From assembly GCA_021802645.1 (NCBI GenBank), contig JAJZRO010000022.1, positions 1 to 33,910 of the forward strand: a DNA stretch of 33,910 nucleotides, written 5' to 3'. Shown in pieces: positions 6,019 to 22,927 of this stretch. Under the pieces are notes generated by a model. It did no database searches. It was not told where the DNA came from and saw only the letters and a program-made list of their open reading frames with translations. The position numbers and the translations under genes were made by a program. Each line of letters begins with the position of its first letter. The stretch's first letter is position 1. This DNA comes from Deltaproteobacteria bacterium. GTDB lineage: Bacteria; Desulfobacterota; Desulfobulbia; Desulfobulbales; Desulfurivibrionaceae.

Positions 6019-7425
6019 TTGAAAGAACGTGTCCTGATTGCAAACCGTGGCGAGATCGCCTTGCGCATCATGAACGCCTGCAAGGATCTCGGCCTTGAAT
6101 ATGTGGTGATCTATACCGCGGCGGATGAAGGGTCGGAACATGTCCGCCGCAACCTCGACAGCCGGAGCAACACCAAGCGGGCCTGGCGGGTATCGAGTTA
6201 CACCGATCCCAACGACCTGCTGGCGGTGGCCGACCACACCCAATGCACGGCGATTCACCCCGGCTACGGTTTCTTTTCCGAGGACTACCGCTTTGCCCGG
6301 CGGGCCACCATCCGCAGCCGGCCGCTGACCTTCATCGGCCCCAAGTGGGAGGTGATCAAGGACCTCGGCGACAAGATCAACACCAAAAAGGTGGCCAACC
6401 GCCTCGGCATTCCCACCATCCCCGGCACCGACGGCCCGATTTACAACGAGATGGAGGCCGAGGGCATTGCCCATCATCTGCTGCTGGAGCAGAACGAGCA
6501 GGGTATCGAGCATCCCTCGGTCCTGGTCAAGGCCGCGGCCGGCGGCGGCGGCATGGGGATCGAGGAGGTATACGAGATCGAGCACTTCCGCCGGGTCTAC
6601 CGCCAGATCCAGAACTATGCCAAGCGTCAGTTCGGCGACCCCGGCGTGCTCATCGAACAGCGGATCCGCGACTTCAACCATCTGGAGGTCCAGCTGGTGT
6701 GCAGCCGCCACGGCGAGCGCGTGCATTTCGGCACCCGCAACTGCACCATCCAGAGCACCGGCCGCCAGAAGCGGCTGGAGGCGGCGCCGGGCTTCGACAA
6801 CTCCTGTTTCCCTTATGAGTTCCACGCCAAGGACACTTTGGACAAGGTGGTGGACTACTCCCTCAAGCTCGCCGCCCACGTGCGCTACGACAACGTCGGC
6901 ACCTGGGAGTGGATCGTGACCCGCGACGGTCGCCCCTACCTGCTGGAGGTCAACACCCGCATCCAGGTGGAAAACGACGTCTCGGCCCGCATCAGTTATC
7001 TGCATGGCCAGCATCCCAACCTGATCCGCGAGCAGATCCGCCTGGGGCTTGGCGACCGCATGGGCTTCACCCAGCGCGATATCGACCTCCGCGGCGCCAG
7101 CATCGAGCTGCGCATCGTGGCCGAAGACCCGTACCGCGGCTTTGCCCCGTGGATCGGCACCATCTCCAGGTTCAGCCATCCCGAGCACGATTGGTCCGTG
7201 GTCTATACCCACGTGCCGTGCGACCGGCCCTACGTGATTCCCAGCGAATACGACCCCAACCTGGCCCTGGCTTTGGTCTGGGGCGACTCCATGGCCGAGG
7301 CCAAGGAGCGGGCCCGCCAGTTCTTGAGCGAGACGGTGATCGAAGGCACCACCGCCAGCGGCGCCCCGATCAACACCAATCTCCAGTATCTCGCCGAGAA
7401 CATGGACCGACTGCTCACCTTCTAA
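6019..7425 (+). CDS. Divergent biotin carboxylase subunit (AccC-like)
   Basis: ATP-grasp enzyme expected to carboxylate biotin on a carrier protein with bicarbonate and ATP, the first half-reaction of a biotin-dependent carboxylase. 468 residues (E. coli AccC 449). It opens with KERVLIANRGEIALRI, and AIHPGYGFFSED is the biotin carboxylase N-domain signature. VLVKAAAGGGGMGIEE is the glycine-rich ATP loop, and EVNTRIQVEN contains the catalytic Glu/Asn/Arg set. The protein is clearly divergent: the usual QVEH reads QVEN, and the segment after HVRR is unlike the typical HVKLADEA. The TTG start at 6019 is chosen because GAGGG lies 5 bases upstream and the family signature begins there; the open frame extends to 5941. 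It is first in an operon with the next three genes. Confidence 0.9.
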   Translation: MKERVLIANRGEIALRIMNACKDLGLEYVVIYTAADEGSEHVRRNLDSRSNTKRAWRVSSYTDPNDLLAVADHTQCTAIHPGYGFFSEDYRFARRATIRSRPLTFIGPKWEVIKDLGDKINTKKVANRLGIPTIPGTDGPIYNEMEAEGIAHHLLLEQNEQGIEHPSVLVKAAAGGGGMGIEEVYEIEHFRRVYRQIQNYAKRQFGDPGVLIEQRIRDFNHLEVQLVCSRHGERVHFGTRNCTIQSTGRQKRLEAAPGFDNSCFPYEFHAKDTLDKVVDYSLKLAAHVRYDNVGTWEWIVTRDGRPYLLEVNTRIQVENDVSARISYLHGQHPNLIREQIRLGLGDRMGFTQRDIDLRGASIELRIVAEDPYRGFAPWIGTISRFSHPEHDWSVVYTHVPCDRPYVIPSEYDPNLALALVWGDSMAEAKERARQFLSETVIEGTTASGAPINTNLQYLAENMDRLLTF

Positions 7426-7443
7426 CGGCAAGGTGTCTTCTTT

Positions 7444-9699
7444 ATGAGTGAAGATCTCCGCAAACGACTGCTCAAGCTCGAAGAGCGCATCAACTACCTC
7501 GGCCAGATCAAGGAGGGCACCGATTGGGGTAACCTGCCTGGCCTGCGGGAGAAGTACGCCCGGCTGCGCGGTTCCTTCTACGACCTCTCCCACGAGGAAC
7601 TGCTCGGCGAGATCACCGAGTTCGAGGACTCGCTGCTCTTTCTCGAAACGCGCTGCCAGGAGACCCTCACCCCGATGGAGCGGGTGCGCATCGTCCGCAG
7701 CCCCTTACGTTTCTCGCTCAAGGACATCCTGGAGAACGTCTACGAGGACTACACCGAACTCGGTGGCGAGGAGGATGCCAACATCGACCCCGCCATCGTT
7801 GCCGCCCGCGCCAGCATCTCCCGCCGGGTGAAGAACAAGGTCATCAGCCAGCAGGTGATGGTCATCGGGCATGAGAAGGGGCACGGCGAGGAGTACCGCA
7901 ACGGCGGCAGCACCAAGCCGTGGGGCAACGAGAAGGCCCTGCGCTACATGCGGGTCGCCGAGACCGAGGGCATTCCCATCCACTTCTTCGTCTTTACCCC
8001 CGGCGCCTTCCCGGTCGAGGATTACCCCGGCGCCGCCCAGCAGATCGCCCGCAACCTTTACGTGATGGCCAAACTTCGGGTGCCGATGATCGCCATTACC
8101 TCCGAGGGCGGCTCCGGTGGCGCCGAAGCGGTGGGAATGGGCGATATCCGTTTGATGTTCTCCCATGGCTACTACTCGGTGATCTCGCCCGAAGGCGCGG
8201 CGGCCATCGAGGGCAAGATTCGCGAAGGGGAGAAGGTGCCCAAGGAACTCATCGAGGAGTGCGCGACGCGACTCCACATCACCGCCACGGAGAACCTCGC
8301 CCTCGGCACCATCGACCGCATCATCCAGGAACCGTTGTTGGGCGCCAAGCGCGACGATTTCGCCTTCTTCCGCGAGATCAAGGACGAGGTGATCCGGGCC
8401 ACCGATGAAGTGGTCTTGAAGACCAAGAGCCTGCGCGCCTTCCGCGCCTACGATTTGAAGGTGAAGAAGGCAGAAGAGAATTCGACCGAGGAACCGCACA
8501 TCGACATCACCTGGGAGCTTGACAACGACGAGGTCAAACGGTTGCTGGCGCTGCGCTCTCGCAAGTACCGGAGCATGGCGAAGCAGGGATACGCCGAGAA
8601 GGAGACGGCCTGCACCCTCTGGTGCCAGCGGGCCCGCAAGAATCTGGCCAAGCTCTACTATTCCTTCCGCTACGACGTCTTGAAGCCCCAGCACAAACAG
8701 GTTCGCAAGGTGATTCAGGATGTCTCCGGCGAGGGCTCCATGCTGATCAAGCAGGTCTCCGCCCCCTTCACCTCGGCTTACGATTTCATCGTCCGCAAGC
8801 CTAGCGCCCGGCCGACCCGGATCGGCGGCTATCTTGCCGGCGTCGAGGAGCGGGTGGAGTTCGGCGAGACCTATACCAGCCCCTTGGCCAACGAGGATCG
8901 CACCATCACCTGCCCCAATGCCGAAAAGATGGGCTGCCGCGACCTCTGGGTGCCAGACCTCTATGGCGAGTTCTGCGGGGTCTGCGAGAACTGCGGCCAC
9001 CATTTCCCGCTGGAGTATGAGTGGTACCTGCGCCATCTCTTCGACCCCGGTTCCATCCGCGAGTTCAACAGCGAGATCGCCGCGGGCAACCCCCTTGGGT
9101 TTCCGGGGCTCGGCAAGAAGGTCCAGGCCGCGGCGGCGAAGACCGGCCGCAAGAGCGCCATGGTCACCTTCGACGCCAAGGTGATGGGCGTCGACATCGT
9201 GGTGGCCATGCTCTACAGCGATTTCCGCAACGGCACCGTCGGCTCGGCCGAGGGCGAAAAGTTTGCCCGCGCCTGCGAGGCTGCCAAGCTCAAGCGGCGT
9301 CCGCTGCTCTCGTACGTGCATACCACCGGCGGCATCCGCATTCACGAAGGCACCCTCGGCGTGGTGCAGATGCCCAAGTGCACGCTGGCGGTGCGCGAGT
9401 ACATCGATTCCGGCGGTCTCTACATCGTGGTCTACGACAACAATTCTTATGCCGGGCCGGTGGCGAGCTTCCTCGGCTGTTCGCCCTACCAGTTCGCCAT
9501 CCGTTCGAGCCGCATCGGCTTTGCCGGCCCGCGGGTCATCCGGGAGACCACCGGTGAGGACATCGCTCCCGACTACCACAACGCCCGCAGCGCCTTGAAG
9601 CGCGGCCACATCCAGGGTATCTGGGACCGCCGCGAGTTCCGCCGCAACCTGCACCGATCGCTGATGACCATGGGCGGCGGCAATCTCTACTACCGTTAA
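7444..9699 (+). CDS. Fused carboxyltransferase, AccA-like then AccD-like (alpha-beta)
   Basis: A single 751-residue chain carrying both halves of a carboxyltransferase that moves the carboxyl group from biotin to an acyl-CoA, most likely acetyl-CoA. Residues about 1-330 resemble AccA: a helical N-terminus, LTPMERVRIVR, then WGNEKALRYMRVAE, SEGGSGGAEAVGMGD and YYSVISPEGAAAI. Residues about 455-740 resemble AccD: cysteines at 490, 498, 511, 514 and 517 form a variant zinc ribbon, followed by a crotonase-type core with IGFAGPRVIRETTGED. The AccD ribbon is normally C-x2-C-x15-C-x2-C, so the spacing here is unusual. Bacterial CT is usually two separate proteins, and single-chain acyl-CoA CTs usually have the order beta then alpha. 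It starts 18 bases after the biotin carboxylase stop. Confidence 0.88.
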   Translation: MSEDLRKRLLKLEERINYLGQIKEGTDWGNLPGLREKYARLRGSFYDLSHEELLGEITEFEDSLLFLETRCQETLTPMERVRIVRSPLRFSLKDILENVYEDYTELGGEEDANIDPAIVAARASISRRVKNKVISQQVMVIGHEKGHGEEYRNGGSTKPWGNEKALRYMRVAETEGIPIHFFVFTPGAFPVEDYPGAAQQIARNLYVMAKLRVPMIAITSEGGSGGAEAVGMGDIRLMFSHGYYSVISPEGAAAIEGKIREGEKVPKELIEECATRLHITATENLALGTIDRIIQEPLLGAKRDDFAFFREIKDEVIRATDEVVLKTKSLRAFRAYDLKVKKAEENSTEEPHIDITWELDNDEVKRLLALRSRKYRSMAKQGYAEKETACTLWCQRARKNLAKLYYSFRYDVLKPQHKQVRKVIQDVSGEGSMLIKQVSAPFTSAYDFIVRKPSARPTRIGGYLAGVEERVEFGETYTSPLANEDRTITCPNAEKMGCRDLWVPDLYGEFCGVCENCGHHFPLEYEWYLRHLFDPGSIREFNSEIAAGNPLGFPGLGKKVQAAAAKTGRKSAMVTFDAKVMGVDIVVAMLYSDFRNGTVGSAEGEKFARACEAAKLKRRPLLSYVHTTGGIRIHEGTLGVVQMPKCTLAVREYIDSGGLYIVVYDNNSYAGPVASFLGCSPYQFAIRSSRIGFAGPRVIRETTGEDIAPDYHNARSALKRGHIQGIWDRREFRRNLHRSLMTMGGGNLYYR

Positions 9700-9715
9700 G
9701 CGCGAGGCCGAGCCG

Positions 9716-10366
9716 ATGATGGAGCCGGATATCGATTTTGATGCGGTCTTGAGCCAGTACCGTTCCGATCCGTACGATTACGTGGATGTCTGCACCTTGC
9801 ACACCGGCCGCCTCCGCTTCAAGGTGCGGAACGGCGCCAAGGTCGAAGGGCCGACCGGCAAGTGGCATCACCTCGCCGGCACCCTGCTCTACGAACTGGA
9901 GCGGGAGCGCAACCCCAAGAAGATCACCTGCGTCACCAACGGCGAGATCGCCGAGCTGCGGGACGAACTGGAGGGGGAGTTCGTCGAGGCGGGCGAGAAG
10001 GTCATGACCATCAAGCATCCGCTCAAGAAGCGGGAGATCATCGAGTCGATCCTGCGTCGGGTGCTCACCCCCTTCGTGGCGCCGGAAAAGGCCAAGTACT
10101 TCTTCTCTCTCGACTTGCAGGCCAAGATCGACAAGTACGGCCAGCGCGAGGTGGCGATCCGCCCCGGCGACGAGATTCTCACCATGAGCCTGATGAAGCG
10201 CGACACCCCGGTCTACTACCAGGGCGATCCGGGCATCATCCACTCGGTCTATTTCAAGCCCGGCGTGAGCGTCGAACAGGGCGAGCCCTTGATCGGCATC
10301 TGCCCCGAGGAGAAGCTCGCCTACATCCAGAAGATCATCACCCGCGTTAAGGCGGAGTGGGAATAA
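9716..10366 (+). CDS. Candidate biotin carrier protein of the carboxylase, non-canonical
   Basis: 216 residues. No close named family is recognised, but two stretches look like biotinyl/lipoyl half-folds. Residues 75-100 contain GEFVEAGEKVMTIKH. Residues 153-195 contain EILTMSLMKR, then GDPGIIHSVYFKPGVSVEQG and EPLIGI. The second stretch lines up with the part of BCCP around the modified lysine (EAMKM...GTV..I.V..GQ.V....PL..I), which makes K161 in SLMKR the best candidate for biotinylation; the normal EAMKM is absent. Its place between the carboxyltransferase and a biotin ligase gene supports a carrier role. It could instead be a structural subunit with the true BCCP elsewhere. Two adjacent ATG codons (9716, 9719) follow a GAGG. 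Confidence 0.68.
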   Translation: MMEPDIDFDAVLSQYRSDPYDYVDVCTLHTGRLRFKVRNGAKVEGPTGKWHHLAGTLLYELERERNPKKITCVTNGEIAELRDELEGEFVEAGEKVMTIKHPLKKREIIESILRRVLTPFVAPEKAKYFFSLDLQAKIDKYGQREVAIRPGDEILTMSLMKRDTPVYYQGDPGIIHSVYFKPGVSVEQGEPLIGICPEEKLAYIQKIITRVKAEWE

Positions 10367-10370
10367 GTCC

Positions 10371-11273
10371 ATGAACCCCGCCCAGCTGCGCCCCCTCTTC
10401 GAGGCCGAGGCGGCAGGGCGGGTTCCTTCCTTTTCCCCAGAGATTGCCTCCCGCATCATCCGCTACGGCAGCGTGGTCGGCAGCCGGATCGAGCGTTTCG
10501 ACCGCCGCGGCCGCTGCATGGACCATGGCCGCGACCTCATCCGCCAGTACGAGGAGGAGGGCCGTTCCTTCCCCTCCGGCATGGTGCTCATGGCGACCGA
10601 ACTCACCGCCGGCAAGGGCCGCTTCGCTCGCTCTTGGCATGCCCCCGAAGGCGGCCTCTGGCTCACCCTCATGCTGGTCAACACCCTGCTGCCCGAACAT
10701 GCCCGGTTCCTGTCGCTGGCCGTGGGCGTGGCCTGCTGCGAGGCAGCGCGCCACTTTGGCGTCGATGCCCACCTCAAGTGGGTGAACGACGTGCAGGTGG
10801 ACAACCGCAAGCTCTCCGGGGTGCTCATCGAAACCGAGCGCGGCCCGCGTTTCGGCGAGGAGTATCTCCTCATCGGCATCGGCCTCAACGTGAACAACGA
10901 GGCCTTCCCGCCGGAATTGCGCGACACCGCAATCTCGCTACGGCAACTCCTGGGGCGGAAACTCGATCTGGACGAGGTGGCCGGCCAATTGCTGGCCAAG
11001 CTCGCCTGGAACCTCGGCCTCTTGCACTATGCCGAGGCCGAGGCCCTGCACGCCGTCGGGGAGATGGCGGCGCCCCATCCCATTTTGGCCCGCTGGCTGG
11101 AATTGAGCGACACCGTCGGCCGCCGGGTTCTCTTTGGCTTCGACGTGCAGCAGGCCCCACAGTATGAGGCGGTGGTCGAAGGGCTCGATCCGGCCGGCGG
11201 CCTGATCCTCCGATTGTGCGAAGACCACACCACCGTGGTCGAGCACGCCGGCGAGATTCTCTACCTCGACTGA
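10371..11273 (+). CDS. Biotin-[acetyl-CoA-carboxylase] ligase (BirA catalytic type)
   Basis: 300 residues. The enzyme activates biotin as biotinyl-AMP and attaches it to the carrier lysine. The ligase core is seen in ELTAGKGRFARSWHAPEGG (the family's TAGRGR...W motif) and LKWVNDVQVDNRKLSGVLIE (KWPND and the RK-GIL lysine), followed by GIGLNVNN. A C-terminal SH3-like region reaches the end (VVEGLDPAGGLILRL, then EHAGEILYLD). There is no N-terminal helix-turn-helix, so it should not act as the biotin repressor. The N-terminal ~75 residues are unlike typical ligases and may fit a divergent carrier. It begins 4 bases after the carrier gene stop, so the two are very likely co-translated. Confidence 0.9.
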   Translation: MNPAQLRPLFEAEAAGRVPSFSPEIASRIIRYGSVVGSRIERFDRRGRCMDHGRDLIRQYEEEGRSFPSGMVLMATELTAGKGRFARSWHAPEGGLWLTLMLVNTLLPEHARFLSLAVGVACCEAARHFGVDAHLKWVNDVQVDNRKLSGVLIETERGPRFGEEYLLIGIGLNVNNEAFPPELRDTAISLRQLLGRKLDLDEVAGQLLAKLAWNLGLLHYAEAEALHAVGEMAAPHPILARWLELSDTVGRRVLFGFDVQQAPQYEAVVEGLDPAGGLILRLCEDHTTVVEHAGEILYLD

Positions 11274-11509: not shown

Positions 11510-14500
11510 ATGCTATTGCAGAATCTGAACATCGGTAAAAGGCTGAATGTGGGCTTTGGCGTGGTGCTGGCCTTGCTGGCGCTGGTGGTGGCCATCGCCT
11601 TCGTGAACGTGAACCGGCTGGACGACCTCATCATGACCACCGTTCACGACAAGTTCCAGAAGGTCGAGTTGCTGGCCGGTGTCCACGAGGAGACCAATAT
11701 CGTGGCGCGTGCCCTGCGCAACATGGTCATTCAGCCGGACCCCGAGACCATCCGCAAGGAAAACGCCCGCATCGCCGAGGCTGAAGAGAAGATCGCCAGG
11801 GATCTGGAGCAGCTCCAGACCGTGGTCCGGTCCCAGGAGGGCATGCGCCACCTGACCGCAGTGACCGAAGCCCGCAAGAGTTACCTGGACCGGGTGGCAA
11901 CCCTGCAAGAGATGATTCGCCAGGGTCGTGCCAAAGAGGCTTCGGCTGAGCTCTTTGGCAGGTTCCGCGAGGTGCAGACCGCCTACTTCAAGGCCCTGGA
12001 CGAGATGACGCACTACCAGGTCGGCGAGGTGGAGCGGGTCGGTCAGGATGCCGACCAGCTGGCCGGGAGCGCCAAGCTTCTCATCGTGGTGCTGGGATTC
12101 GCCGCCCTGCTGCTTGGTGGATGGCTTGCCTGGTATATCGCCCGCTCCATTACCCGTCCCATCGATGGCTGCGTGAAGGCAGCCAACGCCCTGGCTGCTG
12201 GCCAGACCGACCTGGACCTCGATACCAGCGCCAAGGATGAGACCGGCACTCTACAGACCGCCATGGTGAAGATGGCGGAGGCGATCAACGACATGATCGC
12301 CGATGTCTCCACGCTGGCGGGCGCAGCGGTGGCAGGCAAGCTTACGGCCCGGGCCGATGCGACCAAACATCAGGGCGATTTCAAGCGGATCGTTGAGGGG
12401 GTCAACAACATCATGGCGCGGCTGGTGGGGCTGCTCGACACCATGCCGGCGCCGGCCATGATCATCGACAACGATTTCACCGTGCAGTACATCAACGAAC
12501 TGGGGGCCAAGGCGGGCGGCAGGACGCCGGCCCAGCTCATCGGCTCCAAGTGCTACGATCACTTCAAGACCGCGGATTGCGGCACCGACAAGTGCGCCTG
12601 CGGCCGGGCGATGCGCGACGGACGGAACGCCAACAGCGAGACCGACGCCCATCCGGCGCCGGGGGTTGATCTGGACATCGCTTACAGCGGCACCCCGCTT
12701 CGCGACGAGCAGGGCCGTATCATCGGCGCTTTCGAGGTGGTGAGCGACCAGACCGCCGTCAAAAAGGCGGCCCGGCTGGCCGAAAAGGTGGCGGCCTACC
12801 AGAAGGCCGAGACGGAAAAGCTGGTCGCCTGCATCGCCAAACTGGCCCAGGGTGATACCCAGTGCACCGTGATCCCGGCAACCGGGGATGCCGATACCGC
12901 CGAGGTCCGGCAGGTCTTTGAGACCATTGCCGAATCCTTCGGCAGCTGTCTCAAGACGGTCAGCGCCCTGGTGGCCGATGTGAATCTGCTGGCCAAGGCA
13001 GCGGTGGAGGGGCGGCTCACGGCCCGGGCCGATGCCGCCAAGCATGAGGGCGATTTCAAGCGGATCGTTGAGGGGGTCAACAACATCATGGCGCGGCTGG
13101 TGGGGCTGCTCGACACCATGCCGGCGCCGGCCATGATCATCGACAACGATTTCACCGTGCAGTACATCAACGAACTGGGGGCCAAGGCGGGCGGCAGGAC
13201 GCCGGCCCAGCTCATCGGCTCCAAGTGCTACGATCACTTCAAGACCGCGGATTGCGGCACCGACAAGTGCGCCTGCGGCCGGGCGATGCGCGACGGACGG
13301 AACGCCAACAGCGAGACCGATGCCCATCCGGCGCCGGGGGTTGATCTGGACATCGCTTACAGCGGCACCCCGTTGCGCGACGAGCAGGGCCGTATCATCG
13401 GCGCTTTCGAGGTGGTGAGCGACCTCACCGCCATCAAGCAGGCCGGCCGGGTAGCGCAGAAGGTGGCGGATTACCAGAATGCCGAAACGCGCAAGTTGGT
13501 GGGCTGGCTCAATCTGCTGGCCCAGGGCGACACTGCCTTTACCATCGCCGCCGAGCGGGCGGATGCCGACACCGAGCCGGTGCAGCGGGTCTTCGAGGAG
13601 ATCGGCTCGGCGCTCAAAACCCTCACCGAGGCCCTCAACACCATCACCGCTGCGGCGAGCGAGATTGCCGGCGGCAATCTGCTGGTGGAACTGAACCAGC
13701 GCAGCGAGCAGGACGCCCTCATGCAGGCCCTGCAGGAGATGGTGCAGAAGCTCAAGGCGGTGATCCGCGATGCCCAGTCCGCGGCCGAGCACGTGGCGGC
13801 CGGCAGCGTCCAGCTTTCTTCCACCGCCCAGGGCATGTCCCAGGGCGCCACCGAGCAGGCAGCCAGCGCCGAGGAGGTCTCCGCCTCCATGGAGGAGATG
13901 AGCTCCAGCATCCGTCAGAACGCCGACAACGCCAACCAGACCGAGAAGATCGCCATGCAGTCGGCCAACGACGCCAGCGAGGGCGGCAAGGCGGTGGCCG
14001 AGACGGTGGGCGCCATGAAGGAGATCGCCACCAAGATCAACATCATCGAGGAGATCGCGCGGCAGACCAACCTGCTGGCGCTCAATGCCGCCATCGAGGC
14101 GGCCCGGGCCGGCGAGCACGGCAAGGGTTTCGCGGTGGTGGCCTCCGAGGTGCGTAAGCTCGCGGAACGAAGCCAGTCCGCAGCCAACGAGATCAGCCGG
14201 CTTTCCACCCGCAGCGTCGCCATTGCCGATGCGGCGGGCGAGAAGCTGGGCAGAATGGTGCCGGACATCCAGAAGACCGCCACCCTGGTTCAGGAGATCA
14301 GCGCCTCCTGCCGGGAGCAGGACGCGGGTACCGAGCAGATCAGCAACGCCATCCAGCAGCTCGACCAGGTCATCCAGCAGAACGCTTCGGCAGCCGAGGA
14401 GATGGCCGCCACCGCCGAGGAGCTTTCCGGCCAGGCTGCCCAGTTGCAGGAGGCCATTGCCTACTTCCGCATGGAGGAAGGCTCGGGCCGCATCACCGCC

Positions 14501-14656
14501 GCCCTGCATGCGCCGGCAGGCAAACCGGCTCCCCGGCTGGCGGCGCCGCCAGCGCCCAAACCTTTGGCAAAACCGCCGCGGGCGGCGAAGGCGGGCGGCC
14601 ATGTTCTTGATCTGGGGGAGAAGGGGCACCTCGACGAGGAATTCGAGCGTTACTAG
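11510..14656 (+). CDS. Methyl-accepting chemotaxis protein with two near-identical Cys-rich PAS domains
   Basis: 1048-residue inner-membrane chemoreceptor. TM1 is at about 12-34 and TM2 at about 188-210, with a helical periplasmic sensor between them. HAMP-like segments follow, then two cytoplasmic PAS domains (residues about 289-414 and 514-639). Each PAS carries C-x8-C-x4-C-x-C (C348/357/362/364 and C573/582/587/589), which may bind a metal, heme or Fe-S cluster or act as a redox switch. The signalling hairpin is canonical ([40 protein letters not shown]). The C-terminal tail ends in EEFERY, fitting the CheR/CheB tether pattern of two aromatic residues separated by two. It has its own promoter and a strong terminator, so it is transcribed alone. 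GAGAGG lies upstream of the ATG. Confidence 0.95.
12374..12749 (+). repeat. PAS-coding repeat, copy 1
   Basis: A 376-base segment repeated at 13049-13424 (offset 675 bases, 225 codons). I counted three mismatches, all synonymous, so the two PAS domains are identical at protein level here. The flanking linker sequences have diverged much more. Confidence 0.95.
13049..13424 (+). repeat. PAS-coding repeat, copy 2
   Basis: Second copy of the 376-base PAS segment, in the same frame and orientation as copy 1. The differences from copy 1 are GAT for GAC and TTG for CTT. Sequence just upstream (HAMP-like, [12 protein letters not shown] against [12 protein letters not shown]) is similar but not identical. 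Confidence 0.95.
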
Positions 14657-14681
14657 CCTCCTCCCGCGGATGAACAGGGGT

Positions 14682-14721
14682 CAGGGGCCGCTGCCTTATG
14701 GGGCTCGGCCCCTGTTTTTTT
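14682..14721 (+). terminator. Rho-independent terminator after the first MCP
   Basis: A perfect 9-base stem (CAGGGGCCG at 14682-14690, CGGCCCCTG at 14706-14714) with a 15-base loop, followed at once by seven T residues. Confidence 0.92.
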
Positions 14722-14747
14722 ACAGGCCGCATTTCCCGATTTGACGT

Positions 14748-14777
14748 TTGACTTCTTTTTTCCCACTCACCTATACT
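14748..14777 (+). promoter_or_regulatory. Promoter of the second MCP gene
   Basis: TTGACT (14748-14753), an 18-base pyrimidine-rich spacer containing a T run, and TATACT (14772-14777). The same layout and boxes appear before the third MCP gene. Confidence 0.68.
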
Positions 14778-14959
14778 TGGAATATCCGCCTAACATTTTC
14801 GGAAGATTCGGGGGAAAACTTCCGGCCGTTTCACGCAGTAGCTTGCCGGCGGGGGAGTCTTTCTTTGCGTTTGGTATTGGCTTGTTCTGGTTGCAAGCCA
14901 CATGGGGTGATGTCCGTAGAGGACTTGACTGAATGGTATCTTTGTCTGGAGAGACTGCT

Positions 14960-17422
14960 ATGATGCTCAAAAACATGAAGATTAAAGTGAAGTTGGTCAG
15001 CAGTTTTTTATTGGTCGCGGCGTTGGTGGCGGTGGTCGGTGCCTTTGGTAGCCTCAAGGTGCACCAGGGTAGTGATACCGATATCTTCCTCTACGAGAAG
15101 TGTACCATTCCGCTGGGTTTGCTCATCAATGTGGAAACGGGTTTCGAACGTTCCGCCGCCAACATCGCCTCCATGGTCTATCAGCGGAACGCCGGCCAGA
15201 TGAAGGCCGTCGAGGAATCCATGGATGCCGCGGACCTGGCTCTGCGAGATTACAAGAAGACCCTGATCGATGCCGAGGCTGAGAAGGACTACAACCAGGC
15301 CTTGGTCCAGTGGGCCGCCTGGAGCAAGTTCATCGATCAGGAAAAAGAGTTGCTGCAGGCCGAGCGGTACGATGCCGCCCTAACGTTGCAGAATGGGGAA
15401 GGCCGACAACTCGGCAAGGCGACGAGGAGCCTCTTCGAAAAGATCGAGGCCCGCAACATCGACGCGGCAAAGAAGATATCTGACAACAACATTGCCATGG
15501 CCAACAGCACCACGAGGTGGATCTATTTTGCCATCGGCGTGGGGGTACTTGTTGCCGTTGGCATGGGGCTTCTGGTGACCAAGGCCATCACCCAGCCGCT
15601 CCAGGCCTGTGTGGATGCGGCCAAGGCTATTGCCATCGGCAATACCGAAGTGCATCTGGATACCAGCGCCACCGATGAGATCGGCATGTTGCAGACCGCC
15701 ATGGCCCAGATGGTGGAAGCGATCAACGCCATGATCGAGGAGGTGGACCTGCTGGTGACCGCCGTCTGGCAGGGAAGGATCACCACCCGTGCCCAAGCGG
15801 ACAGGCACCAGGGCGATTACCGGAGAATCGTCGCCGGGATCAACAGCGTCATGGACCGATTGGTGGGGATGCTCGATACCATGCCTTCGCCGGCCATGAT
15901 CATCGATAACGATTTTACCGTCCGGTATATGAACGAACTCGGAGCCAAGGTGGGCGGCAGGAGTCAGGCCCAGGTGATCGGCACCAAGTGCTACGATCAC
16001 TTTAAGACCAGCGACTGCAAGACCGAGCGATGCGCCTGTGGCCGCGCGATGCGCAATGGCCAGGAGGCCAGTTCCGAGACGGACGCCCATCCTTCCGTGA
16101 GCCTTGACCTGGACATCGCGTACAGCGCCACCCCCCTTAAAGATGAACAGGGCAGGATCATCGGCGCCGCCGAGTGGGTCACCGACCAGACTGCCATCAG
16201 GCAGGCGGCCAGGGTGGCGGCCAAGGTCGCCACCTACCAGGAGAACGAGACCCAGAAATTGATGGAACTCCTGAACAGCCTTGCCAAGGGTGAATTGGAC
16301 CTCGCCGTTGCAACCGCCCCGGCCGACAGCGATACCCAGGCGGTCAAGCAGGTTTTTGACGGCATCGGCACGGCGGTGGCGGCGTTGGTCAAGGCGTTGA
16401 AGGAGGTCAGCTACACGGCTGGTGAGATTGCCGGCGGTAATTTGCAGGTCCAGTTGCGGAAGAGGAGCGACCAGGATGTGCTGATCCAGGCATTGCAAGA
16501 CATGGTAACCAAGCTGAAAGAGGTGATCACTGACGTGCGTGCCGCCGCCGATCAGGTGGCGGCCGGGAGCCAGCAGTTGAGCGGCAGCTCCCAGGAGGTC
16601 TCCCAGGGCGCGAGTGAGCAGGCCGCCTCGGTGGAGGAAATCTCGACCTCTATGGAGGAGCTGGCCTCCACCGTGGCGCAGAGCGCTGACAATGCGCGGC
16701 AGACGGCGACTATTGCGGGGAAGGCGTCGGAGGATGCGGCAGCGGGCGGTAAGGCGATGGGAGAAACGGTGGCGGCCATGCAGCACATCGCCGAAAAGGT
16801 GGCGCTGATCGAGGAGATCGCGCGGCAGACCAACCTGCTGGCCTTGAACGCCGCCATTGAGGCGGCCCGGGCCGGCGAGCACGGTAAGGGTTTCGCGGTG
16901 GTGGCTTCGGAGGTGAGGAAACTGGCGGAACGGAGCCAGGTTTCGGCGCAAGAGATCAAGACAGTTGCGGCGGAGAGCGTCCAGACGGCGGCCAATGCCG
17001 GGAAATTGATCAACGACATCGTGCCGCAGATCCAGAAGACCGCCGAACTGGTGCAGGAGATCGACGCCGCCGCCAATGAGCAGGCGCGCGGCATCGAGGA
17101 AAACACCAAGGCGGTCCAGCAGTTCGATCAGGTGATCCAGGCCAACAGTGCGGCCGCGGAGGAGATGGCCTCCACCAGCGAGGAGCTGACCGCCCAGGCG
17201 GAACACCTGCAGGATATCATCGCTTTTTTCAGGATGGGAGAGATGGCGGTCGGTGGAAATCCCTCGGAAAGGATACTGGTTGGGCAGAAGAGGTTGTCGA
17301 GAGCGGCAGCGCCGCCCATTGCAGCGGTTCCGCGTTCCTCCGCACGTCCAACGATTGAGAGATGCCAAGGGGCACAGTTGGTGCTGCAAGACAAACCGGA
17401 ATTCGATTTCGAACGGTATTAG
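14960..17422 (+). CDS. Methyl-accepting chemotaxis protein with one Cys-rich PAS domain
   Basis: 820 residues. TM1 is at about 12-31, followed by a periplasmic four-helix-type sensor, then TM2 at about 188-208, HAMP, one PAS (about 290-420), a second linker and the MCP signalling domain ([20 protein letters not shown]). The PAS has the same C-x8-C-x4-C-x-C set as the first receptor (C344, C353, C358, C360). The protein ends in FDFERY, a likely CheR/CheB docking tail after a flexible linker. The start at 14960 is chosen because GGAGAG lies 6 bases upstream; the open frame extends to 14933. Its signalling domain is closer to that of the third receptor than to the first, and a 112-base stretch is identical between the two. 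It has its own promoter. Confidence 0.95.
17038..17149 (+). repeat. 112-base exact repeat in MCP signalling domain, copy 1
   Basis: Identical to 18851-18962 in the third MCP gene. It encodes the segment around [20 protein letters not shown]. Third-position identity over the whole length suggests recent duplication or gene conversion rather than protein constraint alone. Confidence 0.9.
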
Positions 17423-17426
17423 GCTA

Positions 17427-17478
17427 CCCCCCGAGATGGCGACGATATTGTTGGTCGCGGGGAGTGAGTCAATTTTTT
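17427..17478 (+). terminator. Possible weak terminator after the second MCP
   Basis: A bulged stem (CCCC plus GCGAC on the left, GTCGCGGGG on the right, 17427-17462) is followed by AATTTTTT at 17471-17478. The bulge and the gap before the T run make it less certain than the other terminators. Confidence 0.45.
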
Positions 17479-17481
17479 GAT

Positions 17482-17511
17482 TTGACTTCCTTTTTTTACC
17501 CCATCTATACT
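17482..17511 (+). promoter_or_regulatory. Promoter of the mcp3-che operon
   Basis: TTGACT (17482-17487), an 18-base spacer with a T7 run and TATACT (17506-17511). It is almost the same as the promoter at 14748-14777, so the second receptor and the che operon are probably expressed together. Confidence 0.68.
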
Positions 17512-17550
17512 TTTTGAGGAAGTGATTCTGGGAGGGGAGAATATCAACTG

Positions 17551-17571
17551 ATGGGAGAGCTCGGTTTATGA
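17551..17571 (+). CDS. Possible 6-residue leader ORF overlapping the third MCP start
   Basis: ATG at 17551 reads MGELGL and stops at TGA 17569-17571, which overlaps the MCP ATG at 17568 as ATGA. The mini-ORF contains the GGGAGAG that serves the MCP start and has a purine-rich GGAGGGGAG about 12 bases upstream. Translational coupling is possible, but such a short frame can arise by chance. Confidence 0.25.
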
Positions 17572-19238
17572 AGAAGAATATCCGCAACAAGATGCTCCTT
17601 GCCTTTGGCGGAGTCTGCGTGGTGCTGGTGATCCAGCTCCTGGTGAACGGCTTTTTCCAGAGCCGGGTGGTCAGCAGCGTGGAAACCGCGCGGGACAAGG
17701 GGTACGGCGCGAACGATCACGCCCAGAATATCGAAATCGAGGCACTGAAGGTGCGGGAACTCCTCACCGACGCGAGTGTGGTCCGCACGGCCGAGGCCCT
17801 GACCAGTGCGGTCAAGACGGCTGAGGAACATAGCATAAAGCTACGGGAAAGCAGCGAGGCGCTCAAGACGCTCCACCCGGAAAAACGACGCGAGATAGAG
17901 GAAATAGAGAAACTTTTCGGCGAGATGTCGGAAAAGGGCAAACACGCGGCCGAGTTGTACGCCAAGGGGGATTTGGCAACCGGTACCAAGATTTCGGGCG
18001 AATTCGATGCCGCAGCCGAAAATTTGAGCAATCGGTTGGATCAACTGGAAGAGGAGATGGTCACGCAAGCACACGGTGATATCGCCGCGGCGGTTTCCAC
18101 CATCAGGCTTTCCGGCATCATCAGCATCGTGCTGGCTCTGGCCATTATCGTCTTTACCGTAATCCTGGCCTTTGTCTTCTCGGGCCGCATCGCCGGCGCG
18201 CTCCAGAAGATGGTGGTGCTCGCCGAGTCGATCGCCGACGGCGATCTGACCAAGGAGCATGCGGTGATGAACGAGGAGGACGAAATCGGCCAGCTCTCCC
18301 GGTCGCTCGCCCGCATGGAAACCAAGCTCAAACAGATCATCAACGACGTGCGGGCCGCGGCCGATCAGGTGGCCGCCGGCAGCCAGGAGTTGAGCAGCAG
18401 CTCCCAGGAGGTTTCCCAGGGGGCGAGCGAGCAGGCCGCCTCGGTGGAGGAGATTTCCGCCTCCATGGAAGAACTGGCGAGCACCGTGGCGCAGAGCGCC
18501 GACAATGCGCGGCAGACCGCGACCATCGCCAAGAAGGCCTCGGAGGACGCAGCGGCCGGTGGCAAGGCCATGCAGGAGACGGTGGCGGCCATGCAGCATA
18601 TTGCCCAGAAGATCGAGGTGATCGAGGAGATCGCGCGGCAGACCAACCTGCTGGCCTTGAACGCCGCCATCGAGGCGGCGCGGGCCGGCGAGCACGGCAA
18701 GGGTTTCGCGGTGGTGGCTTCCGAGGTGCGCAAGCTCGCCGAACGCAGCCAGGTTTCTGCCCAGGAGATCCGGGGCGTGGCGGCATCGAGCGTGGAAACC
18801 TCGACCCATGCCGGCAGGCTCATCGAGGATATCGTGCCGCAGATTCAGCGGACCGCCGAACTGGTGCAGGAGATCGACGCCGCCGCCAATGAGCAGGCGC
18901 GCGGCATCGAGGAAAACACCAAGGCGGTCCAGCAGTTCGATCAGGTGATCCAGGCCAACAGTTCGGCCGCCGAGGAGATGGCCGCCACCAGCGAGGAATT
19001 GACCGCGCAGGCCGGACAGTTGCAGGATACCATCGGGTTCTTCCGGGTGAGCGCCCTGCCTGGTGTCGGGGCTGAGCGAAAGACGGTGGCGCTGCACCGG
19101 GCGCTACCCCAGCCAAGCCGTCAGCCGGCAGCCAGCCGGTTCTTGCCCAAAACGGCCCCGCCAGCTCACCACGCCGAGGGACAGGGGGTCAAGCTGGAGT
19201 TGAAGGAAACCCACGACCCTGAATTCGAGAGATATTAA
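17568..19238 (+). CDS. Methyl-accepting chemotaxis protein (short, no PAS)
   Basis: 556 residues. TM1 is at about 8-30 and TM2 at about 180-205, bracketing a helical periplasmic domain rich in charged residues. HAMP (about 205-260) and the MCP signalling domain follow, with the hairpin tip [20 protein letters not shown]. The linker after the signalling domain is rich in Pro and Ala and ends in DPEFERY, the same tail type as in the other two receptors. It is the first gene of the che operon: cheA begins 18 bases after its stop. GGGAGAG precedes the ATG. Confidence 0.95.
18851..18962 (+). repeat. 112-base exact repeat in MCP signalling domain, copy 2
   Basis: Matches 17038-17149 base for base (offset 1813). 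Similarity continues on both sides with scattered silent changes. Confidence 0.9.
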
Positions 19239-19256
19239 TCGCGGTCAAGGTGCGTT

Positions 19257-21395
19257 ATGAGTGAATCAGAGTATGGCGAGGTGTTTCGCGAAGAGGCGAC
19301 GGAGCTGCTGGAAGAGTTGGAAAGCGCCCTGCTGGAGCTGGAAAAGAACCCGACCGACCTCAAGATCGTCGGCCGGGTTTTTCGGGCCATGCATACCATC
19401 AAGGGGTCGGGCGCCATGTTCGGTTTTGACGACATCGCCAAGTTCACGCACCATGTCGAGACCGTGCTCGACAAGGTACGCGACGGTGCGGTGCCGGTGA
19501 CCAAGGAACTGATCGACCTCACCCTCGCCTCCCGCGACCATATCACCGCCCTGCTGGATGCCGCCACCGGCACGGGGGCGGCCGATCCGGCCAGGGGCGA
19601 GGAAATCATCGCCGGGATGCAGACACTGGTGGCTGCCGCAACCGGCGACGCGGCCCCGGCCCCGGCCCCGGCGGCCAAGCAACCCGAAGCGGCGCCGGTC
19701 GAAAGCGAAGCGCCCCAAGACAAGACCGTGGGGCAGCTTACCCATTATCGCATCCACCTGAAGCCCACGGCGGAATTCTTTGCCGCGGGCGGTGGTGTGG
19801 AGCCGCTGCTCGACGAGCTGCGAAAACTCGGGGAATGCACGGTCTTCCTGCACGAACCTCAGGCCAGGGAGGCCGGCGACTATGGCTTGTGGGAGGCCTT
19901 GCTCACCACGAAGCAGGGCATCAACGCGGTGAGGGATGTCTTTGTCTTTGCCGAGTCGAGCTGTCTGGTCAAGGTGGTGCCGCTGGCCACCGAGGGCGAC
20001 GAGGAGTTCAGCGAACACAAGCGGCTGGGCGAGATTCTGGTGGAGCGCGGCGAGATCGCGCCGGAAGCGCTGAAAGAGATTCTCGACCAGCAGAAGCCGC
20101 TCGGGGAACTGCTGGTGGAGGCCAAGCTGGTAACCCGCACCAAGGTGGAATCCGCCCTGGCCGAGCAGGAGATGCGGAAATCCCAGAAGCTGGCCGCGCA
20201 GAAAGCCAAAGCGGCAGACTCCATCCGGGTCGGAGCCGACAAACTCGACCGCCTCATCAATCTGGTGGGCGAGCTGGTGGTGACCCAGGCGCAACTGACC
20301 CAGGTCGCCTCGCAGCTCGGCGAGTCCGATCTGGTGGAGCCGGTGGAACAGATCGAGCGGCTCACCGCCGAGATGCGCGACTGCGTGCTGGGTATCCGCA
20401 TGCTGCCCATCGGCACCACCTTTGCCCGCTTCAAGCGCCTGGTGCGCGACCTTTCCACCGAACTGGGCAAGGATGTGGTGATGCAGACCGACGGCGCCGA
20501 GACCGAACTGGACAAGAACGTCATCGACCAGCTCGGCGACCCGCTGGTGCACCTCATCCGCAACAGCATCGACCATGGCATCGAAGCGCCGGATGCGCGC
20601 GAGGCCGCCGGCAAGCCACGCCGGGGCGCCATCCACCTCTCGGCCACCCACGCCGGGGCCAACGTGCTGATCACCGTTTCCGACGACGGCCGCGGCCTCG
20701 ACCGGGAAAAGATTCGTGAGAAGGCCATCGCCAAAGGACTCATCAAGCCGGAGGCCGAGGTGGATGACGCCGCGATCTTCAATACCATTTTCGCCCCAGG
20801 CCTCTCTACCGCCGGCACCGTCACCAGCGTTTCGGGCCGCGGCGTCGGCATGGACGTGGTGAAGAGCACGGTGGAGGGGTTGAAGGGCTCGGTTTCGGTG
20901 CACAGCAGCGGGAAGGGCAAAGGCACCACCATCGCCATCTCCCTGCCGCTGACCCTGGCCATTATCGACGGCCTGCTGGTGCAGGTGGAGGACACCCATT
21001 TTGTGTTACCGCTCTCTCAGGTGTTGGAGTGCGTGGAGCTGACCAAGGAGGACATCGCCCGATTCCACGAGCGGCGGGTGTTGCCGGTGCGGGATCAACT
21101 GGTGCCCTACGTGCGGCTGCGGGATTTTTTCGCCATTCCCGGGCAGCGGCCCGACCTGGAACAATTGGTGATCGTGGAGATCAACGACGAACGCTTCGGC
21201 GTGGTGCTCGACGACGTGATCGGCGAACATCAGACCGTCCTGAAGTCGCTGGGCTGGGTCTACCGGAACGCCATCGGCGTTTCCGGTTCCACCATTTTGG
21301 GCAATGGCAAGGTGGCGCTGATCCTTGACATGCCGAATGTGTTGAAACATGCGCGCCTTGAGGAACAGGGCGCGATTCGGAATATCGTTCATTAA
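19257..21395 (+). CDS. cheA: Chemotaxis histidine kinase CheA
   Basis: 712 residues. It autophosphorylates and passes phosphate to response regulators and CheB at receptor arrays. The domains in order are: HPt (1-105) with phosphoacceptor H46 in AMHTIKGSGAMFGF; an Ala/Pro linker; a P2-like region at about 160-245; an insert at about 253-308 with two LGE-type repeats (LGEILVERGEIAPEALKEIL and LGELLVEAKLVTRTKVESAL) that resemble the N-terminal domain of GspE/MshE ATPases; a dimerisation domain (GADKLDRLINLVGELVVTQA); a HATPase (HLIRNSIDHGIEAP, SDDGRGLD, SGRGVGMDVV); and a C-terminal CheW-like domain. The insert is not in E. coli CheA and may bind a nucleotide or partner. Confidence 0.97.
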   Translation: MSESEYGEVFREEATELLEELESALLELEKNPTDLKIVGRVFRAMHTIKGSGAMFGFDDIAKFTHHVETVLDKVRDGAVPVTKELIDLTLASRDHITALLDAATGTGAADPARGEEIIAGMQTLVAAATGDAAPAPAPAAKQPEAAPVESEAPQDKTVGQLTHYRIHLKPTAEFFAAGGGVEPLLDELRKLGECTVFLHEPQAREAGDYGLWEALLTTKQGINAVRDVFVFAESSCLVKVVPLATEGDEEFSEHKRLGEILVERGEIAPEALKEILDQQKPLGELLVEAKLVTRTKVESALAEQEMRKSQKLAAQKAKAADSIRVGADKLDRLINLVGELVVTQAQLTQVASQLGESDLVEPVEQIERLTAEMRDCVLGIRMLPIGTTFARFKRLVRDLSTELGKDVVMQTDGAETELDKNVIDQLGDPLVHLIRNSIDHGIEAPDAREAAGKPRRGAIHLSATHAGANVLITVSDDGRGLDREKIREKAIAKGLIKPEAEVDDAAIFNTIFAPGLSTAGTVTSVSGRGVGMDVVKSTVEGLKGSVSVHSSGKGKGTTIAISLPLTLAIIDGLLVQVEDTHFVLPLSQVLECVELTKEDIARFHERRVLPVRDQLVPYVRLRDFFAIPGQRPDLEQLVIVEINDERFGVVLDDVIGEHQTVLKSLGWVYRNAIGVSGSTILGNGKVALILDMPNVLKHARLEEQGAIRNIVH

Positions 21396-21431
21396 CGCCG
21401 AACAGGCGGAATAGACGCGGAGGAAGGCATC

Positions 21432-21980
21432 ATGGCGACCAATACCGAAGGCGTTGAGCAGCAGGCCACCCAATATCTGACCTTTGTGCTGCGTGACGAG
21501 GGCTTTGCCATCGAGATCGGCAAGGTGCGGGAGGTGCTCGACGTCACCACCCTCACCCGGATTCCCCGCATGCCCGACTACCTGAGCGGCGTCATCAATC
21601 TGCGCGGCAGCGTGGTGCCGGTGATGGACCTGGGCCAGAAGCTCGGCATGGGGCCGATCAGCCACACCAAGAATACCTGCATCATGATCGTGGAACTGGA
21701 GGTGGAAGGCGCCATGGTGGAGATGGGGGTGCTCACCGACTCCGTCCAGATGGTGCTCGACCTCCAGGCCGAGGAGATTGAGGCGGTGCCGCGCATGGGC
21801 ACCAACCTCAACACCGAGTTCATCAAGGGCATGGGCCGGCAGGGTGAGGACAAGTTTTTGATCATCCTCGACATCGACCGGGTCCTGGCCAGCGAGGGCG
21901 AGGCCGCCTTGCGCGGCGAGATGGTACCCTCTGTCACTGAAACGCAGGAAGCGGCAAGGGCTGACGCCGGCGCGGCGTGA
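21432..21980 (+). CDS. cheW: Chemotaxis coupling protein CheW
   Basis: 182 residues, a typical CheW length. It links receptors to CheA. Family signatures include YLTFVLRDEGFAIEIGKVREVL near the start, then TRIPRMPDYLSGVINLRG, VVPVMDLGQKLG and the later GTNLNTEFIKGMGRQGED with FLIILDIDRVL. Near position 21424 GAGGAAGG precedes the ATG. The last ~20 residues form an Ala-rich extension. Confidence 0.96.
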   Translation: MATNTEGVEQQATQYLTFVLRDEGFAIEIGKVREVLDVTTLTRIPRMPDYLSGVINLRGSVVPVMDLGQKLGMGPISHTKNTCIMIVELEVEGAMVEMGVLTDSVQMVLDLQAEEIEAVPRMGTNLNTEFIKGMGRQGEDKFLIILDIDRVLASEGEAALRGEMVPSVTETQEAARADAGAA

Positions 21981-22039
21981 GCCTGGCTGCGTCAAGGGAC
22001 TGAACGCCTGAGTTTGAGCAACGAGTGTTAGCGAGTGTT

Positions 22040-22927
22040 ATGGATTCAACCCCTGGCTTACGAGTTTCCGACGGGGAAAGCCCGGCCCCACCCATGCTGA
22101 GCGACCGGGACTTCAACAAGTTCAGCTCCTTCATTTACGAAGTCTGCGGCATCAAGTTGCCGCCGATCAAGAAGACCATGCTCTCCGCCCGCCTCCAGAA
22201 ACGGTTGCGGCGGCTGAACATGGCCTCGTACAGCGCCTACTTCGAGTATGTGCAGAGTCCGGAAGGGCAGGTCAACGAACTCTTCCACATGATCGATGCG
22301 GTGAGCACCAACAAGACCGATTTCTTCCGCGAGCCCCAGCACTTCGAGGTGATGAACCAGAAGGTGCTGCCGGAATTCCTGGCCCGGCACCACAAGTATC
22401 CGCAAGCCCGCCCGCTGCATGTGTGGAGCGCCGGTTGCTCCACCGGTCAGGAACCCTATACCCTGGCCATGGTGCTCCAGGAGTTCTGTGAAAAGAATCC
22501 CCAACTCGATTACGAGATCCTGGCCACCGATATCTGCACTCAGGCCCTGGAGGCCGCCGCCGAGGCGATTTATGCCGATGAGGTGGTCGCGCCGGTGCCG
22601 GCTCATCTGCGGCACAAGTACCTGATGAAGGGCAAGGGTCGCCACAGCGGTTTCCATCGCGTGGTGCCGGAGTTGCGCAACAAGGTGCGCCTTGAGCGGC
22701 TCAATTTCATGGATCGGGATTTCAGGATCAACAAGAAGATGGACATCATCTTCTGCCGGAACGTCATCATCTATTTCGACCGGCCGACCCAGCAGACCCT
22801 GTTTGAGAAATTCTACCGGCAGTTTGCCCCGGGCGGCTTCCTTTTCACCGGCCATTCCGAGTCGCTGGAGGGGATTACCGACCGAATGGAACGCATCGAC
22901 TCGGCGGTGTATAAATGTCTCAAGTAG
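22040..22927 (+). CDS. cheR: Chemotaxis protein methyltransferase CheR
   Basis: About 295 residues. It methylates glutamates of receptors using S-adenosylmethionine. The N-terminal CheR domain begins at LSDRDFNKFSSFIYE. The methyltransferase core shows NKTDFFREPQHFE, VWSAGCSTGQEPYTLAM (AdoMet loop), ILATDICTQAL and IFCRNVIIYFD, ending with FLFTGHSESL. The start is uncertain: ATG 22040 is used here, but GTG 22025 and ATG 22094 are in frame and none has a good ribosome binding site. A 10-base near-tandem repeat (CGAGTGTTAG/CGAGTGTTAT) lies at the start. Its beta-subdomain would dock to the FERY tails of the receptors. Confidence 0.94.
   Translation: MDSTPGLRVSDGESPAPPMLSDRDFNKFSSFIYEVCGIKLPPIKKTMLSARLQKRLRRLNMASYSAYFEYVQSPEGQVNELFHMIDAVSTNKTDFFREPQHFEVMNQKVLPEFLARHHKYPQARPLHVWSAGCSTGQEPYTLAMVLQEFCEKNPQLDYEILATDICTQALEAAAEAIYADEVVAPVPAHLRHKYLMKGKGRHSGFHRVVPELRNKVRLERLNFMDRDFRINKKMDIIFCRNVIIYFDRPTQQTLFEKFYRQFAPGGFLFTGHSESLEGITDRMERIDSAVYKCLK

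Follow-up and report, generated by a model that had tools for sequence, protein, structure and literature searches.

Four consecutive genes of a Desulfurivibrionaceae-like bacterium probably encode a divergent housekeeping acetyl-CoA carboxylase together with a linked biotin ligase (BPL) that works mainly for the carrier of this enzyme, a second, generic BPL being left for pyruvate carboxylase. According to this proposal, the module would be the housekeeping acetyl-CoA carboxylase, of divergent architecture, in a large part of the Desulfobacterota. Its biotin carboxylase (BC) would carboxylate biotin borne on Lys161 of a two-domain carrier, and the main job of the linked ligase, a class I BPL with no HTH, would be the biotinylation of this carrier, which has an MKR motif; the carrier of pyruvate carboxylase would be served by the generic BPL.

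The window considered here is the whole stretch of 33,910 nt, contig C14 of a draft genome of 2.55 Mb in 38 contigs that is 99.4% complete; the closest named loci belong to Desulfobulbales and Desulfurivibrionaceae assemblies. The genes for the BC, a fused carboxyltransferase (CT), the carrier and the BPL are four tightly packed ORFs on the + strand, with intergenic gaps of 18, 16 and 4 nt (Table 1). A previous reading of this DNA, made from the sequence only, had placed four consecutive carboxylase and ligase genes at positions 6019-11273 and had called the carboxylase complete. ORFs and Pfam domains agree with the first statement, and the second is right for the enzyme parts, as BC, carrier, AccA part and AccD part are all present. 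Upstream of the operon, genes for a CorC-like CBS protein and an apolipoprotein N-acyltransferase run in the opposite direction. Immediately downstream lies a chemotaxis cluster (window 11510-22924) that encodes CheA, CheR and three MCPs. In the MCP gene close behind the operon, a PAS-containing segment of 300 nt occurs twice (12279-12578 and 12954-13253), the two copies being 91% identical and 675 nt apart; this repeat reflects a sensor module duplicated recently within the gene.

Table 1. Features of the carboxylase and ligase genes, in window positions
Feature	Position	Strand	Remarks
BC	6019..7425	+	468 aa, TTG start; Pfam Biotin_carb_N, CPSase_L_D2 and Biotin_carb_C above cut-offs
Asn319 codon, QVEN signature	6973..6975	+	equivalent to His297 of E. 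coli AccC
Fused CT, AccA part then AccD part	7444..9699	+	single ORF, 751 aa
AccA-like (alpha) part, ACCA domain	7588..8418	+	EGGSGGA oxyanion motif kept
Presumed zinc ribbon of AccD part	8911..8994	+	invariant Cys490, Cys498, Cys514, Cys517
AccD-like (beta) part	8974..9663	+	TTGGIRIHEG motif kept
Biotin carrier, two barrel domains	9716..10366	+	216 aa
Carrier N-terminal barrel, aa 20-102	9773..10021	+	biotinyl-domain fold, RERN at hairpin tip, without lysine
Carrier C-terminal biotinyl domain, aa 118-197	10067..10306	+	Biotin_lipoyl in 50/50 members
Lys161 codon, predicted biotin attachment site (SLM-K-RD)	10196..10198	+	invariant in alignment
Special BPL	10371..11273	+	300 aa, no HTH; GKGRFARSW and KWVND motifs; BPL_LplA_LipB (Pfam)

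The first enzyme of the module has the ATP-grasp BC domains and the catalytic residues of E. coli AccC, and thus belongs to the biotin carboxylase superfamily. When mapped on E. coli AccC, it retains K119, K171, the glycine-rich loop, H221, Q245, K251, E297, E310, N312, R314, Q316, V317, E318 and R365 (K116...R338 in E. coli numbering), the exceptions being His236 and His297, both replaced. The latter replacement gives the QVEN, instead of QVEH, pointed out in the sequence-only reading, and it is invariant in 79 nearest-relative sequences. In a wider sample the position is N in 11 of 12 BCs of this special type and S in the remaining one, while QVEH is found in 30/30 non-module BCs of the phylum. 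A tree of BCs places the special ones in a single separate clade with a long stem and support 1.0, and on the sequences compared QVEN is a signature of that clade. Since the checked catalytic residues are kept, the change from H to N is not evidence for a different chemistry; that QVEN might abolish catalysis was considered and rejected on the same residue mapping.

Concerning the CT, the order of fusion, AccA and then AccD, is the one claimed before: the Pfam ACCA family matches residues 49-325 with 195 bits, and the AccD model TIGR00515 matches residues 511-740. Alpha and beta parts, glycine oxyanion motifs and cysteines make it a carboxyltransferase of the AccA/AccD type, with zinc itself predicted and with both parts in one ORF of 751 aa, not in separate subunits. 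In the presumed zinc ribbon, aligned to E. coli AccD, the first cysteine pair is C-x7-C against C-x2-C. The PccB/XCC type, with a beta subunit of ~520 aa matching Carboxyl_trans end to end and a fusion of BC and carrier, does not describe it. PF01039 gives mere fragments of 20-35 bits on the fused CT against ~650 bits for a true PccB, and the carrier is separate from the BC, unlike the PccB/XCC-type layout. The AlphaFold2 (AF2) model of the fusion, built from 21 close sequences, has a pLDDT of 46, too low for a fold comparison, and the structural assignment of the CT therefore rests on its sequence.

The carrier lacks EAMKM, as had been stated before, and SLMKRD stands in its place. Pfam Biotin_lipoyl matches residues 148-194, and an alignment by hhalign with E. 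coli AccB puts SLMK in register with EAMK; the register of the N-terminal barrel was also set against AccB. Lys161 and the Arg of MKR are invariant in 50/50 aligned carriers, and the same motif is present in a wider carrier set. A biotin carboxyl carrier is characterized by a biotinyl domain whose beta4-beta5 hairpin bears a lysine, and we find both, so that Lys161 is the predicted site of biotinylation; an (A/V)MKM motif in a single barrel is not found, the carrier having SxMKR and two barrels. Its AF2 model, from 50 sequences, has a mean pLDDT of 86. In a fold search the N-terminal barrel matches the biotinyl domain of P. horikoshii BCCP with Z 11.6 and rmsd 1.4 over 70 residues; with the entire carrier as query the matches are mostly confined to residues 19-102, so that the lack of two-barrel entries among them carries no weight, and the second barrel is assigned from sequence. 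Aligned with each other by hhalign, the two barrels gave no more than a faint match (E 0.01 for one template, probability 4%). The protein appears to consist of two biotinyl barrels, the first of them degenerate and the second active.

The sequence-only reading had also claimed that every part of this system deviates. By score this is correct for three parts, all far under the NCBIfam cut-offs: the BC reaches 313.5 bits with the accC model TIGR00514 (cut-off 626.5), the AccA part 154.7 bits with TIGR00513 (cut-off 319.3) and the AccD part 158.9 bits with TIGR00515 (cut-off 317.45). The ligase does not fit the claim, since with 106 bits it clears the general BPL cut-off of TIGR00121 (83 bits).

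To what extent the operon is an isolated case was evaluated in 247 sampled genomes of the phylum Desulfobacterota. The fused CT is present in 44 of them, distributed over about 17 families, and the rest carry separate accA and accD or neither. It is a single ORF in 42 of the 44 genomes, and in the remaining two its parts lie on different contigs. Each of the 44 also has the odd carrier, its gene following that of the CT at a distance of up to about 400 nt, and a test of 34 genomes that lack the fused CT found the carrier in none (0/34), from which it follows that BC, CT and carrier behave as one module. The hosts are mostly sulfur-cycling bacteria and make up a large part of the Desulfobacterota; this is not a single odd operon. 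One genome (G037) has two fused CT genes and two BCs of the special type, yet one carrier and one BPL.

The substrate was approached through gene content. In the host genome, the only ACCA and Carboxyl_trans matches are those of the fused CT gene, and the one other BC adjoins a carboxyltransferase bearing an EAMKM carrier domain; this second BC and its carrier are a two-subunit pyruvate carboxylase. The sequence-only reading had named a complete canonical accABCD set elsewhere in the genome, together with a published characterisation of this type of cluster, as a reason to abandon it, and our search for separate accA and accD found none. With PF01039, the fused CT is the sole match in 43 of the 44 module genomes, the exception being G126, which has an additional Carboxyl_trans gene. 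As there is no other CoA carboxyltransferase, the fused CT is the only recognisable source of malonyl-CoA in almost all hosts, and for the same reason acetyl-CoA is by far the likeliest substrate. The earlier caution that the substrate is not proven still applies; judging from gene content only, the module is very probably the acetyl-CoA carboxylase of the cell.

An enzyme acting on another acyl-CoA, for example propionyl-CoA, with malonyl-CoA made in some other way, would be in line with carboxylase parts so far under the curated accA, accC and accD cut-offs. This is however very unlikely, because in the PDB the CT parts come closest to the AccA and AccD proteins of known acetyl-CoA carboxylases and not to PccB, and because no known source of malonyl-CoA would then remain in a genome with no other CoA carboxyltransferase. 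Even less credible is a secondary carboxylase working beside a conventional acetyl-CoA carboxylase that escaped detection. The draft state of the genome, in 38 contigs, leaves some room for such an enzyme, but the assembly is nearly complete and the sole-CT result is repeated in module genomes consisting of a single contig (G168, G025, G089, G177 and G236); for closed genomes this explanation is refuted unless a non-homologous CT exists. Relatives that are free of the module and have no separate accA and accD possess full-length CTs of the PccB type. Such is the case in family f2 of the same order (e.g. G011 and G078), which has neither fused nor separate AccA and AccD, and one type of acetyl-CoA carboxylase seems to have given way to another inside a single order.

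Assuming that the carboxylase is the housekeeping enzyme, the role of its ligase can be considered. The ligase of the operon, called here the special BPL, has the catalytic domain of a class I BPL, and Pfam finds no HTH family in it. A profile of the special BPL matches 32 of the 44 module genomes, at 163-484 bits, and in each of these 32 a second, generic BPL accompanies it, with 35-134 bits on the same profile. The profile search found the special BPL in none of 31 module-free genomes (0/31; nothing above 114 bits), of which 30 have one BPL locus and one has none. Within the 32 genomes, it lies at most 2.4 kb from the carrier in 23, directly adjoining it in 21, and elsewhere in 9. In G062, G178, G217 and G237 the generic BPL is beside the pyruvate carboxylase genes and the special BPL elsewhere. 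Genome G236 has the module and both BPLs but is without a second biotin carboxylase, so that its generic BPL is without an obvious pyruvate carboxylase client.

Loci of the Desulfocapsa, Desulfopila and Desulfosediminicola type keep BC and CT together, with no carrier in the fetched flanks. In 17 such split-operon genomes the carrier was searched for, and it was found elsewhere in all 17. The special BPL adjoins the separated carrier in 16 of the 16 that are testable, the contig of the 17th ending right after the carrier; these 16 cases come from one related group and may reflect few independent events. That carrier and special BPL are still together after leaving the operon speaks more strongly for a functional pair than would their presence in one operon by itself.

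A single BPL was found in the remaining 12 of the 44 module genomes, ten of family f39 and two of family f28, and the MKR-type carrier is present there. By coordinates, this lone BPL adjoins the pyruvate carboxylase genes in 10/10 f39 genomes and in 1/2 f28 genomes. In these two families one ligase presumably serves both carriers, and the MKR carrier type can do without a dedicated ligase, since 12 module genomes have one generic BPL. The idea of a dedicated ligase, put forward from the sequence alone, is thus strengthened in one respect, the pairing outlasting the break-up of the operon and the special BPL occurring only with the module, and weakened in another, the ligase not being obligatory. 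A dedicated pair of ligase and carrier is likely, though not universal; the co-evolution of the two that the same reading suggested would, if taken strictly as matched substitutions, be a further claim.

These data have also to be weighed against the hypothesis that the carboxylase is housekeeping while its ligase has no dedicated role, both BPLs being redundant and the special one carried along by linkage. We consider this rather unlikely, but it deserves attention, given that the one-BPL genomes manage with a generic ligase, MKR being kept where carriers were read, and that the special BPL is unlinked in nine genomes. Against it stand the absence of the special BPL wherever the carrier is absent (0/31) and the persistence of the pair after the operon has split. 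The BCCP of Sulfolobus tokodaii, an archaeon, offers an analogy; it consists of a single barrel. As cited in PMC3048393, this carrier has AMKS and is not modified by E. coli BirA, so the residue following the lysine can matter, and a specificity problem is plausible for the MKR carrier too. Both carriers have a non-canonical residue after the biotinylated lysine, which is Ser in the archaeal protein and Arg in the module. Going beyond the preferred reading, in which the special BPL works mainly for the MKR carrier, one could imagine two insulated channels, special BPL to MKR carrier only and generic BPL to pyruvate carboxylase carrier only, with the degenerate first barrel serving for the docking of either the special ligase, the BC or the CT; this stricter version is possible but we hold it only tentatively.

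Public annotation of such fused proteins as 'carboxyltransferase subunit alpha/beta' presumably exists. With the canonical AccABCD of E. coli and S. aureus the module shares BC, carrier, CT parts of the AccA and AccD type and catalytic motifs. It differs in the alpha-beta fusion with a long linker, in a carrier with two barrels and MKR, in a BC of a separate clade with QVEN, and in BC and CT parts under the equivalog cut-offs. Fusions are known in other bacteria. AccS of Shewanella, a single-chain acetyl-CoA carboxylase according to PMC11602165, replaces separate subunits, as the fused CT does. The single-chain AccADCB (PDB 9kkm and 9w4a) also has alpha before beta, an order taken from the PDB name, but there all four parts are in one chain (1517 aa in 9kkm), whereas the module keeps BC and carrier separate; its sequence match to the module amounts to just 50 bits and falls on the AccD part. 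PDB 9kkm is presumably the Shewanella protein. The acetyl-CoA carboxylase of Chloroflexus aurantiacus (PMC11077971) is another bacterial enzyme with an unusual fusion, in this case of BC and BCCP, with separate CT subunits and an EXMKM motif. Two BPLs per genome are found also in Francisella and Lactococcus, where the second one is treated in connection with regulation and with biotin metabolism, without being assigned to any one carrier (PMC4861984). In the passages found, a large evolutionary survey lists Deltaproteobacteria with BC, CT-alpha and CT-beta of acetyl-CoA carboxylase and does not mention the fused type. In the open-access literature we found no paper on a fused alpha-beta acetyl-CoA carboxylase in Desulfobacterota or Desulfovibrio and no characterisation of a module made of BC, fused CT, carrier and BPL. 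Fusion of acetyl-CoA carboxylase parts in bacteria is therefore already known in other forms, and the module is a divergent architecture for which no characterisation was found.

Nearly all bacteria cannot live without acetyl-CoA carboxylase, which is an antibacterial target. The carrier and its ligase suggest themselves as a candidate orthogonal biotinylation tag, and the 12 genomes with one ligase provide a built-in comparison for the contribution of the second. A block of Desulfobacterota families appears to use an acetyl-CoA carboxylase that the NCBIfam cut-offs for accA, accC and accD leave unnamed and, as these models miss the module, annotated pathways of these bacteria may show the enzyme as absent or give a wrong one.
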